From NCBI RefSeq assembly GCF_005795905.1, contig NZ_VAWE01000001.1:6871001-6935000 (forward strand): a stretch of DNA of 64,000 bases, in the 5' to 3' direction. This document shows positions 8,533-36,701 of the stretch, in pieces (within the stretch, counting starts at the first letter, position 1; each line of letters opens with the position of its first letter). Source of the stretch: Streptomyces marianii (GTDB lineage: Bacteria > Actinomycetota > Actinomycetes > Streptomycetales > Streptomycetaceae). The notes beneath the pieces are model-generated. The model did not search any database. It saw only the letters and a list, made by a program, of their open reading frames with translations, and was not told the origin of the DNA. The position numbers were made by a program, and so were the translations under genes.

Positions 8533-8728
8533 CCGGCGGGGTGGCCGGCCGGCGGCCCGGGCACGCGTGACCGTTCACGCCCACCCGTCCCCCTCGCTCC
8601 CGCCCGGTCACCGTAGGCCCGACCACCCCGCCGAGCACCACCAGCCACCGCGTGCGCGCGACCCCCGGCCCAGACCGGGGCCCGCGCGCCGGTGCCGGGG
8701 TTCCCTTCCGCCCCGCGCCGGCCCGGGC

Positions 8729-8750
8729 CGCGACCGGTCGACCGGTCGCG
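8729..8750. terminator. Perfect 22-bp palindrome between convergent genes
   Basis: A 22-bp perfect self-complementary GC-rich sequence centred on GGTCGACC lies between the ends of the small gene (8532) and the CoA transferase (8790). It is plausible as a bidirectional terminator, though it lacks a T-run. Confidence 0.45.
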
Positions 8751-8789
8751 CCCCGTCCGGAAGCCGAGAACCCGCCGTGGACATCCGTG

Positions 8790-10013
8790 TCACCCGAGGC
8801 GTTCGCCGCCCGTGTGCTCCGTGGGAACGATCCCGCACCGGTGCAGCTCGGCGATGTCGTCGGCCGTCAGCCCCGCCTCGCGCAGCAGCGCGTCCGTGTG
8901 CTCGCCGAGTGCCGGGACGGCGCCCATACCCGGCTCCGGACCGCCCGGGAGGGTGATCGGCGGCAGCATCGCCCGCAACCGGCCGACGGGCGTCGCGATG
9001 TCCCGCCAGCGGTCCCGGGCCTCCAGCTGCGGATGGGCGGCCAGATCGGCCACGGTGTTGAGACGGGCGCAGGCGATCCCCGCCTCCTCCAGCAGCGTCA
9101 CGGCGTCCGCCGTGTCCAGCCGGGCCAGCGCCCGGGCGACCACCGCGTCCGTCCTCCCGCGGTTCGCCGTGCGAGCCTTGTTGGTCGCGAAGGCGGGATC
9201 GGCCGCCAGCTCCGGGCGGCCCAGCACCAGCTCGGCGAGTCGCCGCCACTCCCGGTCGTTCTGTACCGACAGCAGTACCTGGCCCCCGTCGGCCGTGGGG
9301 TAGGCGTCATAGGGCGCGATGACCGCGTGCGCCAGACCCGTGCGCTCCGGGGCGTCGCCCCCGTGCATCCCGTGGTGCAGGGGGTGCCCCATCCACTCGG
9401 CGAGCGACTCCAGCATCGAGACCTCGACCGGACCGCCGCGTCCGGTCGTGCCTCGCCGCAGCAGGGCGGCCAGCACCCCCGAGAAGGCGTACATGGCCGC
9501 GGCGACGTCCGCCGCCGGGATGCCCGCCTTCACCGGCTGCTCCGCGGTGCCCGTCACGGACACCAGTCCGGCCTCGCACTGGACGAGCATGTCGTAGGCC
9601 CGCTTGTGCGCGTACGGGCCGGACTCCCCGTACCCCGAGATGTCCACCGCGACCAGCCGCGGGTGCGCGGCGCAGAGCGTGGCGGCGTCCAGCCCGAGCC
9701 GGGCCGCCGCGCCCTGGGCGAGGTTCTGCACGAAGACGTCGGCCTTGGCGATCAGCCGGCGGACCGCTGCCAGCCCCCGGGGATCCTTGAGGTCCACGGC
9801 GAGGGACTCCTTGCCGCGGTTGCACCAGACGAAGTGCGAGGCGAGGCCGCCCGCAGCGGTGTCGTAGCCGCGGGCGAAGTCGCCGCCGTCGGTCCGCTCC
9901 ACCTTGATCACACGAGCGCCGAGGTCGGCGAGCTGACGGGTCGCGAACGGGGCCGAGACGGCCTGCTCGACGGCGACGACGGTGATGCCTTCCAGGGGCA
10001 GCGGCTGGCTCAT
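8790..10013 (-). CDS. CaiB/BaiF family III CoA transferase
   Basis: CoA transferase of 407 residues, the usual family III length. It starts PLEGITVVAVEQAVSAPFATRQLADLGARVIKVE, the standard N-terminal Rossmann opening. NRGKESLAVDLKDPRG and KADVFVQNLAQGAAARLGLD follow. RAYDMLVQCEAGLVSVTG holds the expected catalytic Asp. The acyl substrate cannot be told from sequence. It stands alone, convergent with the small gene at 8.5 kb. No convincing Shine-Dalgarno precedes ATG 10013, so it may be leaderless or use a near-cognate site. Confidence 0.9.
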   Translation of the reverse strand: MSQPLPLEGITVVAVEQAVSAPFATRQLADLGARVIKVERTDGGDFARGYDTAAGGLASHFVWCNRGKESLAVDLKDPRGLAAVRRLIAKADVFVQNLAQGAAARLGLDAATLCAAHPRLVAVDISGYGESGPYAHKRAYDMLVQCEAGLVSVTGTAEQPVKAGIPAADVAAAMYAFSGVLAALLRRGTTGRGGPVEVSMLESLAEWMGHPLHHGMHGGDAPERTGLAHAVIAPYDAYPTADGGQVLLSVQNDREWRRLAELVLGRPELAADPAFATNKARTANRGRTDAVVARALARLDTADAVTLLEEAGIACARLNTVADLAAHPQLEARDRWRDIATPVGRLRAMLPPITLPGGPEPGMGAVPALGEHTDALLREAGLTADDIAELHRCGIVPTEHTGGERLG

Positions 10014-29084: not shown

Positions 29085-30335
29085 TCACCGGTACAGCAGA
29101 TACCCCCGTCGCACCGCGCGGAACGCGGCCAGGTCCTGCTGCCACGCCCCGACGACCTCGTCCGTCCCGGCGCCCGCGTCGACCATCGTGCGCACCAGCG
29201 CGGAACCGGTGAGCTTGTCGATCCAGTTGTCGGGCCGCCAGGCGAAGCCGCTCCAGCCGCGCTTCGCCGTCACCAGCAGCCCGATGCCGGTGCGGACCGG
29301 GTCGAACGCCTCGCGGTCGTGCACATGGAGCTGCACCCCGCCCACCGTCTTGCCCTGGAACTTGGAGAAGGTCGGTGCGAAGTAGGCCTCGCGGAAGCGC
29401 ACCCCGGGCAGGCCCAGCGCGTTGGCCGCCGCCGCCCACGCCCGGTCGATGCCCTCCGCGCCGAGCAGTTCGAACGGGCGGGTGGTCCCTCGCCCCTCCG
29501 ACAGGTTGGTGCCCTCGAAGAGGCAGGTGCCGGAGTAGACGAGCGCGGTCTCCGGCGTCGGCATGTTGGGGCTCGGCGGCACCCAGGGCAGCTCCGTGGC
29601 GTCGAAGAAGTCCTCCCGCCGCCAGCCCGACATCCGCACCACGTCCAGCTCCGCCGGCGCGGTCAGGAACTCGCCGTTGAACAGCCGGGCCAGTTCGGCG
29701 ACGGTCATCCCGTGCGCCTGGGCGATCGGCTCACGGCCGACGAAGGTGGCGAAAGCCTTGTCCAGGACCGGTCCGAGGGCCGCGCGCCCCGTCACCGGAT
29801 TGGGCCGGTCCAGCACGACGAACCGCTTCCCGGCCAGGACCGCCGCCACCATGCAGTCGTACAGCGTCCAGATGTAGGTGTAGAAGCGGGCCCCGGCGTC
29901 CTGGATGTCGAACACGACCGTGTCCACGCCGGACGCGATGAAGATGTCGGCGAGCGGCTGCCCGCTCTTCAGGTACGTGTCGTAGACCGGGAGTCCGGTC
30001 GCGGGGTCGTCGTAGCGGCCCTCGGAGCCGCCGGCCTGGGCGGTGCCGCGGAATCCGTGCTCCGGTCCGAAGACGGCGACCAGGTCCACCCGTTCGTCCG
30101 CGTGCATCACGTCGACGACATGACGGGTGTCGCGGGTGACGCCGGTGGGATTGGTGACGACACCGACCCGCTCGCCGGACAGCAGGCGGTAGCCGTCGGC
30201 AGCGAGCCGTTCGAAGCCGGTGCGCACCCGGCTCCGCCCGCCGTGCGCCGTCGCGGTCGCGGCGGCGGAGGCGGTCGCGGCCAGGGCTCCGGCGGCGCCT
30301 CCCGCGGCCAGCAGACCCCTTCTGGACAGGCTCAT
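29085..30335 (-). CDS. DUF1343 / NamZ-like exo-beta-N-acetylmuramidase, Tat-exported
   Basis: Protein of 416 residues. The N-terminus MSLSRRGLLAAGGAAGALAATAS is a twin-arginine signal. The body follows DUF1343: RVGVVTNPTGVT, VDLVAVFGPEHGFRGTAQAG, VDTVVFDIQDAGARFYTYIWTL, FVVLDRPNPVTG, LPWVPPSPNMPTPETALVYSGTCLFEGTNLSEGRGTTRPFE. In Bacillus and Tannerella, NamZ trims MurNAc from peptidoglycan fragments, so cell-wall recycling is a fair inference. GGAGGTAGTGGG precedes ATG 30335. Divergent from the SDR gene. Confidence 0.9.
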   Translation of the reverse strand: MSLSRRGLLAAGGAAGALAATASAAATATAHGGRSRVRTGFERLAADGYRLLSGERVGVVTNPTGVTRDTRHVVDVMHADERVDLVAVFGPEHGFRGTAQAGGSEGRYDDPATGLPVYDTYLKSGQPLADIFIASGVDTVVFDIQDAGARFYTYIWTLYDCMVAAVLAGKRFVVLDRPNPVTGRAALGPVLDKAFATFVGREPIAQAHGMTVAELARLFNGEFLTAPAELDVVRMSGWRREDFFDATELPWVPPSPNMPTPETALVYSGTCLFEGTNLSEGRGTTRPFELLGAEGIDRAWAAAANALGLPGVRFREAYFAPTFSKFQGKTVGGVQLHVHDREAFDPVRTGIGLLVTAKRGWSGFAWRPDNWIDKLTGSALVRTMVDAGAGTDEVVGAWQQDLAAFRAVRRGYLLYR

Positions 30336-30446
30336 CCCACTACCTCCGTGATAGCTACAACTGTCATGGTCATGAACGCTAGCGCGGGCCCGTGTCGTGG
30401 GGAACGCTCCCGGCGCGACGTCCGCCACGGCCCTCTTCCGCGTGCA

Positions 30447-30466
30447 CATACCGACTGGTTAGTCTG
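30447..30466. promoter_or_regulatory. TetR operator upstream of the SDR operon
   Basis: CATACCGACTGGTTAGTCTG, 36 bp before the SDR start. It matches the reverse complement of the site at 35944-35963 upstream of the phosphotransferase gene (CATACCGACTGGTCGGTC). Confidence 0.85.
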
Positions 30467-30502
30467 CCGTTCTGAGTGAGCCGCGACGGAGAGGCAGGTC
30501 CG

Positions 30503-31267
30503 ATGAGTACGGTGCAGGGCGCGAACGTGGTGGTCACCGGCGCGGGCGGCGGCATCGGCGCCGCGCTCGCCCGCCGATTCGCGGCGGAGGGGGCACGCGT
30601 CGTCGTCAACGACATCGACCCCGGCAGGACCAAGGCCGTCGCGGACGGGATCGGCGCCCTCGCCGTCCCCGGCGACGCCTCCACCGTCGTCGACGAGGCC
30701 AGGGAAGCGCTCGGCGGCACCGTCGACGTCTACTGCGCCAACGCCGGACTCGCCTCGCCCGGCGACGCCCTCGCCGACGAGGACGTCTGGGCCTCCGCCT
30801 GGGACGTGAACGTGATGGCGCACGTCCGCGCCGTGCGCACGCTGCTTCCCGGCTGGCTGGAGCGTGGCAGCGGCCGGTTCGTCTCCACCGTGTCCGCCGC
30901 CGGACTTCTCACGATGATCGGCGCGGCCCCGTACAGCGTCACCAAGCACGGCGCGCTCGCCTTCGCCGAGTGGCTGTCGCTGACGTACCGTCACCGCGGC
31001 CTGAAGGTCCACGCGATATGCCCGCAGGGCGTCCGCACGGACATGCTGACCGCGGCGGGTTCGGCGGGCGAACTCGTCCTCGCCCCCGGCGCCATCGATC
31101 CCGAGGACGTCGCCGACGCCCTGTTCGAGGGCATCGAGACGGACCGCTTCCTCATCCTGCCGCACCCCGAGGTCGCCGGTTACCATCAGGCCCGCGCCGG
31201 CGACCCCGAGCGCTGGCTGGGCAGCATGAACCACATCCAGCAGAAGTGGGAGGGCACGGCCCGATGA
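30503..31267 (+). CDS. Short-chain dehydrogenase/reductase (LvaD-like role proposed)
   Basis: Classical SDR, 254 residues. Cofactor motif TGAGGGIG (about 11-18), NAG-type segment CANAGLA, catalytic Ser in VSTVSAAG and YSVTK (Tyr/Lys near 143-147). GGAGAGG precedes ATG 30503. The stop overlaps the start of the acyl-CoA synthetase (ATGA). In the Pseudomonas levulinate pathway an SDR reduces the 4-keto group of levulinyl-CoA to 4-hydroxyvaleryl-CoA. The same job is proposed here from context only. Confidence 0.92.
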   Translation: MSTVQGANVVVTGAGGGIGAALARRFAAEGARVVVNDIDPGRTKAVADGIGALAVPGDASTVVDEAREALGGTVDVYCANAGLASPGDALADEDVWASAWDVNVMAHVRAVRTLLPGWLERGSGRFVSTVSAAGLLTMIGAAPYSVTKHGALAFAEWLSLTYRHRGLKVHAICPQGVRTDMLTAAGSAGELVLAPGAIDPEDVADALFEGIETDRFLILPHPEVAGYHQARAGDPERWLGSMNHIQQKWEGTAR

Positions 31268-32919
31268 CCGCCTCCCCCTACGCGGCCCGGCCCTGGCTCT
31301 CCCAGCTGACCGACGCCCAGCGCGCCCCCGTGCACCCGCCCACGAGCGTCGTGCACTCCTTCCGCGCCGCGGTCGGACGCGCCCCGGACCGCACGGCCCT
31401 CGCCTACTTCGACGGGCGCCTCAGCTACCGCGAGACCGACGCGCTCTCCGACTCCGTCGCCGGCCGTCTCGCCGCCCGGGGAGTGGCCCCCGGCGACCGG
31501 GTGGCCGTGATGCTGCAGAACACCCCCCAGTTCGTCCTCGCCCTGCTCGGCGCGTGGAAGGCCGGGGCGACCGTCGTCCCGCTGAACCCCATGTACAAGT
31601 CGGCCGAGGTCGCCCATGCCCTGGAGGACTCGGGCGCGACGGTGCTGATCTGCTCCGACCGCGCCTGGGAGACGCATCTGCGCGACACCGCCGCGGCCAG
31701 CCCCGTCCGGTTCGCCGTCACCGCCTGCGAGCTGGACCTCCAGACGCGCGACGACGACCGCGTCCTCGGCTTCGAGCGGCTGCCTGCGCCCCACGACACC
31801 GACGACCTCGTCACCGTCGCCCGCGCCGGGCTCGCCGCGCCCGAGGGCCGGGACCCGGCCGCCACCGACGTGGCCCTCATCAGCTACACCTCCGGCACCA
31901 GCGGCCGGCCGAAGGGCGCCATGAACCTGCACGGCGGCATCACCTTCAACGCCGAGCGCCAGCGCAACGGCCACCCCGTCCCCGAAGGCGCCTGCTACTT
32001 CGCCCTGGCACCGCTCTTCCACATCACGGGCATGGTGTGCGAACTCGCGGCCTGCGTGGCCAACGCGGGCACCCTCGCGCTCGCGTACCGCTTCGACGCG
32101 GGCGTCGTCCTCGACGCCTTCCTCGAACACCGGCCCGCCTACACCGTCGGCCCCTCCACCGCCTTCATGGCGCTGGCCGCCCATCCCGGCGCCGGCCCCG
32201 ACCACTTCGCGTCCTTCGCCGTCGTCTCCTCCGGGGGCGCGCCCGTGCCGCCCGCCCTGGTGGAGAAGTTCCGCGCGGGCTTCGGGCCCTACATCCGCAA
32301 CGGCTACGGGCTCACCGAGTGCACTGCGCCCTGCGCCTCGGTGCCTCCCGAGAAGGAGGCCCCGGTCGACCCCGCCTCCGGCACTCTCTCCGTCGGCGTC
32401 CCCGGGCCGGACACCGTCGTACGGATCCTCGACGACAACGGCGACGAGGTCCCGTTCGGTGAGCACGGCGAGATCGCCGTCCGCGGACCGCAGGTCGTGC
32501 CCGGCTACTGGCGGCTGCCCGAGGCCACCGCGGCCGGCTTCCCCGACGGCGAGCTGCGCACCGGGGACATCGGCTTCATGGACGCCGACGGCTGGCTCTA
32601 CGTGGTCGACCGAAAGAAGGACATGATCAACGCCTCGGGCTTCAAGGTCTGGCCGCGCGAGGTCGAGGACGTCCTCCACACCCACCCGGCCGTCCGGGAG
32701 GCGGCCGTCGTCGGCGTGCCGCACGCCTACCGGGGCGAGACCGTCAAGGCGTACGTCAGCCTCCTGCCCGGTACGGCCGTCGGCCCCGACGAACTCGCCG
32801 GATACTGCGCCGACCGCCTCGCCGCGTACAAGTACCCGCGGCAGGTGGAGATCCTGGACGAGCTCCCGAAGACGACTAGTGGGAAGATCCTCAGGCGGGA
32901 ACTGCGTTCCCGCACCTGA
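31264..32919 (+). CDS. AMP-forming acyl-CoA synthetase
   Basis: ANL superfamily acyl-CoA ligase, 551 residues. P-loop YTSGTSGRPKG (near residue 207), YGLTE (near 347), GELRTGDIGFMDADGWLYVVDRKKDMI (A8 hinge), and TTSGKILRREL with the catalytic Lys near the C-terminus. It activates a carboxylic acid to its CoA ester; chain length is not readable. Coupled by ATGA to the SDR gene and followed by the TetR gene on the same strand, so it probably feeds the kinase and dehydrogenase encoded by the converging operon. Confidence 0.94.
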   Translation: MTASPYAARPWLSQLTDAQRAPVHPPTSVVHSFRAAVGRAPDRTALAYFDGRLSYRETDALSDSVAGRLAARGVAPGDRVAVMLQNTPQFVLALLGAWKAGATVVPLNPMYKSAEVAHALEDSGATVLICSDRAWETHLRDTAAASPVRFAVTACELDLQTRDDDRVLGFERLPAPHDTDDLVTVARAGLAAPEGRDPAATDVALISYTSGTSGRPKGAMNLHGGITFNAERQRNGHPVPEGACYFALAPLFHITGMVCELAACVANAGTLALAYRFDAGVVLDAFLEHRPAYTVGPSTAFMALAAHPGAGPDHFASFAVVSSGGAPVPPALVEKFRAGFGPYIRNGYGLTECTAPCASVPPEKEAPVDPASGTLSVGVPGPDTVVRILDDNGDEVPFGEHGEIAVRGPQVVPGYWRLPEATAAGFPDGELRTGDIGFMDADGWLYVVDRKKDMINASGFKVWPREVEDVLHTHPAVREAAVVGVPHAYRGETVKAYVSLLPGTAVGPDELAGYCADRLAAYKYPRQVEILDELPKTTSGKILRRELRSRT

Positions 32920-32989
32920 GACAGCGCCGCGCCCCGGCCACGAGGGGACTTCGGCGCACGGCGACCGAGCGGAAAGGCGGGTGGCGGCA

Positions 32990-33583
32990 ATGGCCAGGAC
33001 GACGGACGGGAACGGCACCCCCGTCCCCCAGAGGCTGCTGGCCGCCGCCACCCGGCTCTTCGCCGAGCAGGGCTACGACCGCACGTCCGTCCAGGAGATC
33101 GTCGAGGCGGCGGGCGTCACCAAGGGCGCCCTCTACCACTACTTCGGGTCCAAGGAGGACCTGCTCCAGGAGGTCTACTCCCGGGTCCTGAGACTCCAGC
33201 AGGAGCGCCTGGACGCCTTCGCGGAGGCGGACGCCCCCGTCGACGAACGGCTGAGGTCGGCGGCCGCCGACGTGGTCGTCACCACCATCGAGAACCTCGA
33301 CGACGCCTCGATCTTCTTCCGTTCGATGCACCATCTCAGCCCGGAGAAGAACAAGCAGGTCCGCGCCGAGCGCCGCCGCTACCACGAGCGGTTCCGCGCA
33401 CTCATCGAGGAGGGGCAGGAGAGCGGGGTGTTCTCCGACGCGACCCCCGCCGACCTGGTGGTGGACTACCACTTCGGCTCCGTGCACCATCTGTCCACCT
33501 GGTACCGCCCCGACGGCCCGCTCAGCCCGCAGCAGGTCGCCGACCACCTCGCCGACCTGCTGCTCAGGGCACTGCGTCCCTGA
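32990..33583 (+). CDS. TetR regulator of the acyl-CoA cluster
   Basis: TetR-type regulator, 197 residues. Helix-turn-helix TSVQEIVEAAGVTKGALYHYFGSKEDLL. The C-terminal half (FFRSMHHLSPEKNKQVRAERRRYHERFRALIEEG) resembles the TetR_C_17/KstR2-like ligand domain, often acyl-CoA responsive. GGAAAGG precedes ATG 32990, 70 bp after the synthetase. The matched palindromes at both outer ends of the cluster are the inferred binding sites. Confidence 0.92.
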   Translation: MARTTDGNGTPVPQRLLAAATRLFAEQGYDRTSVQEIVEAAGVTKGALYHYFGSKEDLLQEVYSRVLRLQQERLDAFAEADAPVDERLRSAAADVVVTTIENLDDASIFFRSMHHLSPEKNKQVRAERRRYHERFRALIEEGQESGVFSDATPADLVVDYHFGSVHHLSTWYRPDGPLSPQQVADHLADLLLRALRP

Positions 33584-33600
33584 CACCCCGCGGGTGCGGT

Positions 33601-33646
33601 CGGCGTGGGGCGCCGGAGGGCTCAGGCCCTCCGGCGCCCCACGCCG
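33601..33646. terminator. Bidirectional terminator between the two converging operons
   Basis: Perfect 21-bp stem (33601-33621 with 33626-33646) and a 4-nt loop, 17 bp after the TetR stop and 12 bp before the stop of the opposing dehydrogenase. Confidence 0.92.
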
Positions 33647-33658
33647 GAGGCGCGTCCG

Positions 33659-34873
<1,215 letters not shown>

Positions 34874-34879
34874 GGGTGA

Positions 34880-35902
34880 TCAGCCTTCCTGAAGGGTGGT
34901 GAGGCCGTGGTCGATGAACAAGGGGACGAGTTCGCCGATCCGGTCGAAGCCGGCGCCGACGGTCTGGCCGAGTGTGTAGCGGTAGTGGATGCCCTCCAGG
35001 ATCACGGCGAGCTTGAACCAGGCGAACGCCGTGTACCAGGAGACGGCGGAGGTGTCCCGGCCGGAACGGGCCGTGTAGCGCTCGACCAGCTCCTCGGCGT
35101 CCGGGTGGCCGGCCGCCCCGGCCGTGGTGCTGACGGGGGAGTCCGGCAGCTCCAGCTTCCGGCTGTACATCACCAGCAGCCCGAGGTCGGTGAGCGGGTC
35201 GCCGAGCGTGGACATCTCCCAGTCGAGGACGGCCTTGATCCGGTCGTCCTCGCCCACCAGCACGTTGTCGAGGCGGTAGTCGCCGTGGACGACGGTGGGC
35301 GCGGGGGAGCGCGGCAGGGTGCGGCCGAGGGCTGCGTGCAGTTCGTCGATGCCCGCGAGGTCGCGGCCCCGGGAGGCGGCGAGCTGCTTGCCCCAGCGGC
35401 GCAGCTGACGGTCGAGGAAGCCCTCCGGGCGGCCGAAGTCGCCCAGCCCCACGGCCTCCGGGTCCACGGCGTGCAGATCGACGAGGGTGTCGACGAGACC
35501 GAGGACGGCCTCGCGGGTCCGCTCGGGGCCGAGTGGCGCCAGCTGCTCCGCCGTGCGGTACGGAGTGCCCTCGACGAACTCCATGACGTAGAAGGGCGCG
35601 CCGAGCACGTCCTCGTCCTCGCACAGCAGCAGCGGCTCAGGCACCGGGACGGCCGTCGGGTGCAGCGCGCTGATGACCCGGTGCTCGCGCTTCATGTCGT
35701 GAGCGGTGGCGAGCACATGGCCGAGGGGCGGGCGCCGGACGATCCACCGGCCGGCGCCGTCCGTGACGGCGTAGGTGAGGTTCGAACGGCCGCCCTGGAT
35801 CAGCCGGGCCTCGAGCGGTCCGCTCACCAGGCCCGGCCGCGCGCGGTCGAGATGGACCCGCAGCCGGTCGGGGTCGAGGCCCGGGGGGTGGACTGAGCTC
35901 AT
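34880..35902 (-). CDS. APH-like phosphotransferase (LvaA / ACAD10-11 kinase domain type)
   Basis: Protein kinase-like fold phosphotransferase, 340 residues. SNLTYAVTDGAGRWIVRRPP is the N-lobe with the ATP-binding strand. VVHGDYRLDNVLV is the catalytic loop (HGDxxxxN) and VLDWEMSTLGDPLTDLGLL the metal-binding Asp segment. This is the family fused to the dehydrogenase domain in eukaryotic ACAD10/11 and separate in bacteria, where LvaA phosphorylates the 4-hydroxyl of acyl-CoA. GGAGGTACC precedes ATG 35902. First gene of the two-gene operon, with the operator 42 bp upstream. Confidence 0.92.
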   Translation of the reverse strand: MSSVHPPGLDPDRLRVHLDRARPGLVSGPLEARLIQGGRSNLTYAVTDGAGRWIVRRPPLGHVLATAHDMKREHRVISALHPTAVPVPEPLLLCEDEDVLGAPFYVMEFVEGTPYRTAEQLAPLGPERTREAVLGLVDTLVDLHAVDPEAVGLGDFGRPEGFLDRQLRRWGKQLAASRGRDLAGIDELHAALGRTLPRSPAPTVVHGDYRLDNVLVGEDDRIKAVLDWEMSTLGDPLTDLGLLVMYSRKLELPDSPVSTTAGAAGHPDAEELVERYTARSGRDTSAVSWYTAFAWFKLAVILEGIHYRYTLGQTVGAGFDRIGELVPLFIDHGLTTLQEG

Positions 35903-36701
35903 CGGGGTACCTCCGGTGGGGCGGCAGATCGGGTGCGCTCATGATGACCGACCAGTCGGTATGTCGTCCAGGGTGAGGCGGCGCCAGTGCGTGAACCCGA
36001 CTCCCGGGCCTGGTCGTACGAACGCGTGGGTGAACGCCGTTCATGCATGGGTAAAGCGCCGATCATCGTCGAGGCCCGGCCGGCGGGGCCGCCCCGGGCC
36101 GCCCCGCCGGCCACCCGGTGCGTCCTCCGTTCCTCCACATCGAGGCCGCGCCGACATGGTCCGCCCGGGGAGTGCGGTGCGTGTGTCCGCGGCGGGACGC
36201 CCCGCCCGGCCCGCTCGCCGAGGTCCCGCCGGGGCGTTCGGTCATGGATCTGAACGGCCTGCGCGTCCTGACCGGTCAGGTGTGCGGTGCCTCACGGGCC
36301 TCGGCGAGCGGGCCGACGCGGGCCGACGCGGGCGGACCGCAGAGGTGTGGAGAGGCGGGGAAGCGCCGGTTCCCGGTCTTCCGCGCCGTCGAGGCCGCCT
36401 GCCTCGACGCGCTCGGCGAGGCAGGCGGACCGCGTGCGTCGTGGGCCGCCGGATCGGTGTCCCTCGGCCGGGGCGACGTTCTCGGCGCCGAGGGGGCGGA
36501 ACGGCCCGAGCGCGCGGGGCGAACCGCTCGGCGAGACCGTCGGGGCGAGGGGTGTTCCACCCTGGTGAGCCGGGGTTCCGGTGAACACCGCGCCGCGCTC
36601 CGGGGGGCGGGCGGCCGTGTCACCCGCGGTCCGCGGTACGGGTGGTGCCGGGGCGGATCAGCCGCGGGTGGTGCCGGGCCGGAGGTCGGGGCGGGGTCGC
36701 G
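35903..36701. other. Intergenic stretch of about 800 bp
   Basis: Holds the operator at 35944-35963 and then very GC-rich DNA with overlapping frames that look random (Arg/Ala/Gly/Pro). One frame from ATG 36244 is open but has no ribosome site or domain. I see no supportable gene. Confidence 0.6.
35944..35963. promoter_or_regulatory. TetR operator upstream of the phosphotransferase gene
   Basis: The central ACCGACCAGTCGGT is an almost perfect palindrome. Its reverse complement matches the 30447-30466 site at 13 consecutive bases (CATACCGACTGGT). Confidence 0.85.

Follow-up and report, generated by a model that had tools for sequence, protein, structure and literature searches.

The two converging operons analyzed here lie within a 64,000-nucleotide stretch of the Streptomyces marianii genome (contig NZ_VAWE01000001.1, positions 6,871,001 to 6,935,000; hereafter the window) and encode, on one strand, a short-chain dehydrogenase/reductase (SDR), an AMP-forming acyl-CoA ligase and a TetR-family regulator, and, on the other, an ACAD11-type dehydrogenase and an APH-type kinase. 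Gene content, linkage, conserved catalytic residues, and the operator-like sites with their distribution make it probable that this five-gene set is a repressor-controlled module that prepares 4-hydroxyacyl-CoAs for beta-oxidation much as ACAD10/ACAD11 do in mammals, with the kinase and the dehydrogenase as separate proteins.

Under the proposed mechanism the ligase would join CoA to a 4-hydroxy (or 4-keto) acid, the SDR would probably interconvert the keto and hydroxy forms at the 4-position, the kinase would phosphorylate the 4-hydroxyl of the acyl-CoA, and the ACAD11-type flavoenzyme would expel the phosphate to give a 2-enoyl-CoA; a TetR repressor of the same kind as PfmR of Thermus thermophilus would occupy the two operators and leave them when acyl-CoA accumulates. 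Each enzymatic step, the step order and the direction of the SDR, as well as TetR binding, repression and the inducer, are predictions: the kinase and elimination steps are derived from the conserved catalytic residues combined with enzyme work on ACAD10/11 and Burkholderia proteins (PMC12440821 and PMC11342911, in their available text), and the ligase and SDR steps simply from linkage and enzyme class. The substrates would be 4-hydroxy acids of mixed length rather than mainly levulinate, a possible substrate that nothing singles out.

The new elements are the co-occurrence of the kinase and the dehydrogenase in Streptomyces, the palindromic site before both operons, and the like sites and TetR relatives in Microbispora and Bacillaceae. 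If the pair is read as a 4-hydroxyacyl-CoA pathway under a defined switch, a route to the natural substrate opens, since the TetR inducer should report it, and the like sites offer an entry point to this pathway in Bacillaceae.

The ACAD11-type dehydrogenase and the adjacent kinase

As the initial annotation described, the five genes are intact and arranged in two converging operons, with Pfam in agreement for 5/5. The features are as follows:

30503..31267, + strand: SDR dehydrogenase/reductase, 254 aa (TGAGGGIG from residue 12, D37, S131, Y144, K148; Pfam)
31264..32919, + strand: AMP-forming acyl-CoA ligase, 551 aa (Pfam)
32990..33583, + strand: TetR-family regulator, 197 aa, with a TetR_C_24 ligand domain (Pfam)
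33659..34873, - strand: ACAD11-type dehydrogenase family protein, 404 aa (R258, R263, H266, R269, D385)
34880..35902, - strand: APH-type kinase of the ACAD11/LvaA kind, 340 aa (R72, E73, R165, D208, N213, D227)
30447..30464, + strand: operator-like site CATACCGACTGGTTAGTC, 38 bases upstream of the SDR start
35946..35963, - strand: operator-like site CATACCGACTGGTCGGTC, 43 bases upstream of the kinase start
33600..33647, no strand: 22-bp hairpin between the convergent operons (folding energy)

The closest PDB entries to the dehydrogenase by sequence were mouse ACAD11 (465 bits, 54% identity), 4hr3 (454 bits), which we take to be a bacterial protein, and human ACAD11 (449 bits), followed by an ordinary acyl-CoA dehydrogenase at 162 bits. 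The phosphate clamp of mouse ACAD11 is described as R626, H634 and R637, with R631 conserved in the family and D753 being catalytic (PMC12440821, available text); all five are kept, as R258, H266, R269, R263 and D385, respectively. The string R...R..H.MR was present in each of the 96 tree rows besides the own-genome outgroups (94 HCMR, 2 HAMR) and was not found in the two own-genome outgroup dehydrogenases checked. In the tree (98 rows, thinned from 115 before building) the window's dehydrogenase falls inside a 95-row ACAD11-type clade (support 99/98), within an actinobacterial group. In this tree mouse ACAD11 branches from within the bacterial proteins, which may make the bacterial forms useful as simple models of it. 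LvaC of Pseudomonas and the two own-genome acyl-CoA dehydrogenases lie outside the clade, all on long branches, the place of LvaC being flagged by the program as unsure. By motif and clade the enzyme is thus of the ACAD11 type, as the initial annotation had claimed, and elimination of phosphate from a 4-phosphoacyl-CoA is its predicted activity.

The kinase shares 40% identity with 9o56, 37% with 3dxp, 35% with the ACAD11 kinase domain and 31% with LvaA. For the ACAD11 domain, the available text of PMC12440821 names D220 and N225 as catalytic and R176, together with an arginine beside the alpha-C glutamate, as contacting CoA; D208, N213 and R165 of the window's kinase correspond to the three numbered residues. 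The remaining arginine, R72, was matched by description, because that text numbers it R86, and the offset fitting the other residues gives 84 of the printed chain. R72, E73, R165, D208, N213 and D227 are invariant across alignments of 17 and 23 kinases. A structure model (mean pLDDT 91) was closest in fold to 3dxp, followed by Rv3168 and a 25-hydroxysteroid kinase; ACAD11 ranked 20th, amid many aminoglycoside kinases. In two trees, restricted to ORFs of more than 300 aa (the first built without an outgroup, the second with one whose branch is long), the actinobacterial kinases stand beside, not inside, the clade of Pseudomonadota kinases and the ACAD11 domain (92/75 and 93/71). LvaA falls outside these kinase clades on a long branch that meets that of the outgroup, which leaves its position unsure. 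A phylogeny placing both proteins outside the Lva/ACAD11 clades had been named as what would refute the initial annotation; the dehydrogenase lies inside the ACAD11-type clade and the kinase next to the ACAD11-domain clade, and neither groups with LvaA or LvaC. The nearest relatives of the kinase, at 98% identity, carry Streptomyces names. Names listed for the kinase relatives are "phosphotransferase family protein", "aminoglycoside phosphotransferase (APT) family kinase protein" or "acyl-CoA dehydrogenase".

Within the operons the SDR and ligase genes overlap by 4 bp, and the kinase and dehydrogenase genes are 6 bases apart. The 75-bp gap between the converging operons contains a strong 22-bp hairpin (-66.5 kcal/mol, z -8.1, for the 69 bases 33590-33658), which is probably a terminator common to both, as judged from its position and folding. 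Directly to the left of the module, on the opposite strand, lies a gene for a NamZ-type exo-muramidase (29085-30449).

The operator-like site and the TetR regulator

Two near-identical 18-base sites, differing at 2 of 18 bases, are located one upstream of each operon; the boundaries in the initial annotation (30447 and 35963) are the exact outer ends of these sites, which its text omits. The window count was 2 versus 0.08 expected, and one shuffle in 100 gave as many; one of the two sites served as the search pattern. The sequence ACCGACYRGTCGGY was found with 0 mismatches before the kinase in 50/50 Streptomyces loci from 43 genomes, window included (the 30 best-scoring loci and 20 hand-picked ones), and three control patterns gave 0 exact matches before the kinase in the same 50 loci; the control patterns for this kinase-promoter scan and for the broad-locus scan (below) were made by hand. 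The site also precedes the SDR in all 12 loci with a readable SDR upstream region (window included).

On the scale of 61 whole Streptomyces genomes, the palindromic ATACCGACYRGTYRGY occurs in 125 copies (5 for the reversed control), 56 of them before the kinase, 55 of the SDR type ending TTAGT and 14 elsewhere. The site precedes the kinase in 56 of the 58 kinase-bearing genomes; no sites were found in the three genomes without the module (3/3) or in the incomplete genome G050. A convergent pair of sites within 12 kb is present in 49 of these 58 genomes. Among the other nine, the sites are on separate contigs (G008, G017, G024), the front part of the kinase is missing from the data (G041, G050), the SDR operon has moved (G060, with the sites 13 kb apart; G012, 1.8 Mb), or an exact SDR-type site is lacking (G011, G045). 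Both relocated SDR operons retain the site. The distant SDR-ligase operon of G012 (L244, 4959) offers a naturally occurring test of co-regulation.

Of the 14 extra sites, four (from three genomes) share their contig with a second ACAD11-type dehydrogenase. The locus L246 (site 5127) is a larger beta-oxidation cluster with a thiolase, a HAD hydrolase, ligases, SDRs, an enoyl-CoA hydratase, an ACAD11-type dehydrogenase and an APH kinase, its paralogs being 61% (dehydrogenase), 43% (kinase), 46% (SDR) and 59% (ligase) identical to those of the window; L247 (site 5105) has an SDR (45%) and a dehydrogenase, and L245 (site 3634) a dehydrogenase only. Single sites elsewhere were observed in G009 (C1:4251087), G013 (C1:3913235) and G049 (C1:4409370; L248-L250). 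In the S. marianii genome itself a perfect ACCGACCAGTCGGT is located ~12 bases before a PF21863 helix-turn-helix gene (C1:1123341; L040, ~5342), which is possibly a third target of the TetR, or a chance occurrence. The same genome contains eight perfect palindromes ACCGACAGGTCGGT with a different centre (e.g. C1:155463 and C1:2048287), which are perhaps sites of another regulator.

Like sites are found beyond Streptomyces. In Microbispora (L156) a TetR 70% identical to that of the window has an exact site before its own gene, and a one-mismatch site precedes the kinase. In Bacillaceae, ACYRACYRGTYRGT stands before the dehydrogenase in 6/7 loci (exact in five, with one mismatch in L108), a TetR match is present in 5/7, and more exact sites lie right after the TetR gene in L114, L121, L145 and L148; in L096 and L108 one-mismatch sites are located ~150 bases before an ordinary dehydrogenase match. 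The gene order of L145 by Pfam is dehydrogenase, SDR, thiolase, SDR, ligase, TetR (TetR_C_24), 3-hydroxyacyl-CoA dehydrogenase, enoyl-CoA hydratase, kinase. The Streptomyces and Bacillaceae TetRs are 26-29% identical overall and have in common the helix-turn-helix string VTKG(A/T)(L/F)Y. In a scan of the 129 kinase and dehydrogenase promoters of 85 broad loci the pattern matched 6 exactly and 9 with at most one mismatch, versus 0 for the three controls; with two mismatches allowed the margin over the controls shrinks (10 versus 1, 7 and 3).

A precedent for this type of site is PfmR (TTHB023), the T. thermophilus TetR repressor of fatty-acid genes, for which the available text of PMC7022988 gives the sites TACCGACCGNTNGGTN and CCTACCGACCGGTCGG, the latter bound at 0.3 nM. 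A TACCGAC-type palindrome, as in the PfmR consensus, is present before both operons of the module, and given such binding a PfmR-like repressor would be the obvious reading of the site. A broader proposal, which we advance tentatively and at somewhat below even confidence, is that a dedicated TetR repressor with a single ancestral operator type governs 4-hydroxyacyl-CoA breakdown in Actinomycetota and Bacillota, as a two-phylum regulon defining the bacterial ACAD10/11 pathway; in Streptomyces this regulon would be a core, almost single-locus one, scavenging the cells' own hydroxylated lipids rather than outside carbon.

Distribution of the pair and alternative readings

Within Streptomyces, the kinase (E <= 1e-30) and the dehydrogenase (E <= 1e-130) are each present in 97 of 101 genomes, and both are missing from the same four (G035, G037, G051, G094). 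The two genes adjoin in 95 of the 97 genomes with both, hence their linkage exceeds chance; the exceptions are G017, where they are split over contigs, and G079, with distant copies only (50% and 62% identical), 8 kb apart. Across 198 genomes of the phylum (E <= 1e-90 and 1e-75) 75 have both genes, 7 the dehydrogenase only, 7 the kinase only and 109 neither (Fisher P ~1e-37, uncorrected for kinship). Of 20 fetched Streptomyces loci, nine contain all five genes, five are cut by the end of the stretch, and two have the kinase and dehydrogenase alone, one of these with an SDR and a TetR ~11 kb away. Coordinates reveal more adjacent pairs outside the genus (e.g. G139, G145, G151, G251, G261). Inserts between the TetR and dehydrogenase genes (8 loci) were considered as a shared part of the module and dismissed, the six read by Pfam being two M28 peptidases, two histidine kinases, a zinc dehydrogenase and a MarR-acetyltransferase. 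Oleate hydratase yields hydroxy fatty acids, from which shortening by beta-oxidation would give 4-hydroxyacyl-CoA; it is encoded in the S. marianii genome, but its presence in only 19/101 Streptomyces genomes (E <= 1e-60), versus 97 for the pair, led us to reject it as the general source.

A number of observations weigh against the reading of the module as a repressor-controlled 4-hydroxyacyl-CoA pathway. The window's kinase is outside the clade of the ACAD11 kinase domain and Burkholderia kinases, so its substrate may differ. An aspartate of the D37 type is usual in SDRs that use NAD, and it fits oxidation as well as reduction. Outside Streptomyces the kinase and dehydrogenase are often apart: of 20 fetched loci, a second Streptomyces copy among them, 3 had a kinase match nearby. 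In addition, 4 of the 20 fetched Streptomyces loci have the SDR and TetR with no adjoining ligase. As for the regulator, the SDR-ligase operon of G012, 1.8 Mb off, has no TetR match in the surrounding 12 kb; among 10 non-Streptomyces actinobacterial loci scanned, L156 alone has a site by the module (<=1 mismatch); and both the exact site before the dehydrogenase of L103 (Nocardiopsis) and the one-mismatch site of L083 occur in loci with no TetR match. Finally, no activity was seen reported for any Streptomyces member.

The initial annotation saw in the window four equivalents of the Pseudomonas levulinate enzymes and, accordingly, a pathway for 4-hydroxy or 4-keto acids. If the module were a genuine levulinate (4-ketovalerate) pathway, equivalent in Streptomyces to lvaABCDE, this would explain the likeness of enzyme classes, and also why none of the own-genome sequences compared matches LvaA and LvaC better than the kinase and dehydrogenase of the window. 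We nevertheless regard it as unlikely. The reference locus, L213 of Pseudomonas, was located via a kinase search and has the order divergent sigma-54 regulator (PrpR_N), APH kinase, 118-aa DUF6285 protein, acyl-CoA dehydrogenase, SDR, ligase and SSF transporter; from this order, the domains and the description in the available text of PMC6692424 we take it to be the putative lva operon. Compared with it, the window's kinase scores 82 bits to LvaA (31%) and the dehydrogenase 226 bits to LvaC (36%), the ligase 198 bits to LvaE (32%) versus 417 bits to the general long-chain ligase family, and the SDR just 32 bits to LvaD (27%), below a different own-genome SDR at 58 bits. The claim of four equivalents is thus not supported, the SDR being distant from LvaD and the ligase LvaE-like in a generic sense only, and the kinase and dehydrogenase group with ACAD11-type families; with one LvaA and one LvaC in the trees, both outside the clades of the window's proteins and on long branches, their placement is unsure. 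A genome-wide search for LvaB (DUF6285) gave five matches, none above the family cut-off, which extends the earlier remark that LvaB was not visible; this absence does not by itself damage the levulinate reading, since the region analyzed in the levulinate user P. citronellolis is also without a found lvaB, according to the available text of PMC6692424. The regulator is a TetR instead of the sigma-54 LvaR, the five genes include no transporter, and occurrence in nearly every sampled Streptomyces genome suits a niche levulinate pathway badly. What stands of the earlier prediction is the linkage of the kinase and dehydrogenase to the SDR, ligase and TetR together with the 4-hydroxyacyl chemistry, which is well supported; given the SDR unlike LvaD, the generic ligase and the lack of LvaB above cut-off, the levulinate pathway is not.

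Marginally less likely still, in our estimate, is that the pair phosphorylates and eliminates on some other hydroxylated acyl-CoA (e.g. branched, steroid- or lactone-derived) and not at C4 of a straight chain. The 25-hydroxysteroid kinase structures among the nearest folds would agree with this, although by sequence the steroid kinase scores only 42 bits; so would a relative pair in Tsukamurella (L074) near a phosphotriesterase-family gene (8544-9527). The phosphotriesterase family includes lactonases, and the L074 gene is a hint at gamma-lactones as a substrate. However, the dehydrogenase keeps all the residues named as holding the 4-phosphate in ACAD11. Very improbable, in our view, is that the cluster serves ordinary fatty-acid catabolism and that its kinase is misleadingly annotated: the ligase, SDR and TetR do each come from common families, but the phosphate-binding motif is not found in the two other own-genome dehydrogenases checked, and the dehydrogenase co-occurs with the kinase across the 198 genomes. 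Compared with these alternatives, an ACAD10/11-like handling of 4-hydroxyacyl-CoAs remains the preferred reading.

Comparison with known systems

A literature search (subscription papers being outside its scope) returned nothing joining lva/levulinic acid or ACAD11 to Streptomyces, or phosphorylation of 4-hydroxyacyl-CoA to Actinobacteria. Two candidates for further lva-like loci were discarded. A second such cluster in the S. marianii genome was rejected, as the next dehydrogenase (C1:8212799) is without the motif and no DUF6285 match exceeds the cut-off; of nine Pseudomonas loci from the first scan three were viewed, none of them lva-like (L085 by Pfam; L102 and L111 by ORF lists alone).

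The module has enzyme classes and logic in common with the Pseudomonas operon lvaABCDEFG (PMC6692424, available text), and LvaC of L213 likewise has R...R..HCMR and the catalytic aspartate. It differs in having no LvaB, LvaR or transporter, an SDR that is not LvaD-like, and a TetR in place of the sigma-54 regulator; its kinase and dehydrogenase steps resemble those of the lva pathway, but the module as a whole is no lva operon. The available text of PMC11342911 gives the identity of LvaC to ACAD10/11 as 62% and 56%, unlike the 36% that we obtained for the L213 LvaC versus mouse ACAD11.

The published sites of PfmR, TACCGACCGNTNGGTN and CCTACCGACCGGTCGG, are close to the module site and both regulators belong to the TetR family, but the reported PfmR target genes (PMC7022988, available text) differ from those of the module, whose TetR is predicted to bind its sites. 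A split kinase and dehydrogenase of Burkholderia were tested alongside parts of ACAD10 (PMC11342911, available text). This pair also consists of a separate kinase and an ACAD11-type dehydrogenase; its relatives are in other clades of our trees, and the Burkholderia loci scanned contain no such site (<=1 mismatch) before the kinase or dehydrogenase. The mammalian ACAD10/ACAD11 system of 4-hydroxy acid catabolism, as presented in the available text of PMC12440821 and PMC11342911, likewise couples an APH-type kinase to an ACAD-type flavoenzyme with counterpart residues; in Streptomyces, by comparison, each is a protein of its own, encoded in a bacterial gene cluster that has a regulator to itself, the kinase belongs to a neighbouring clade, and 4-hydroxyacyl-CoA is the presumed substrate.

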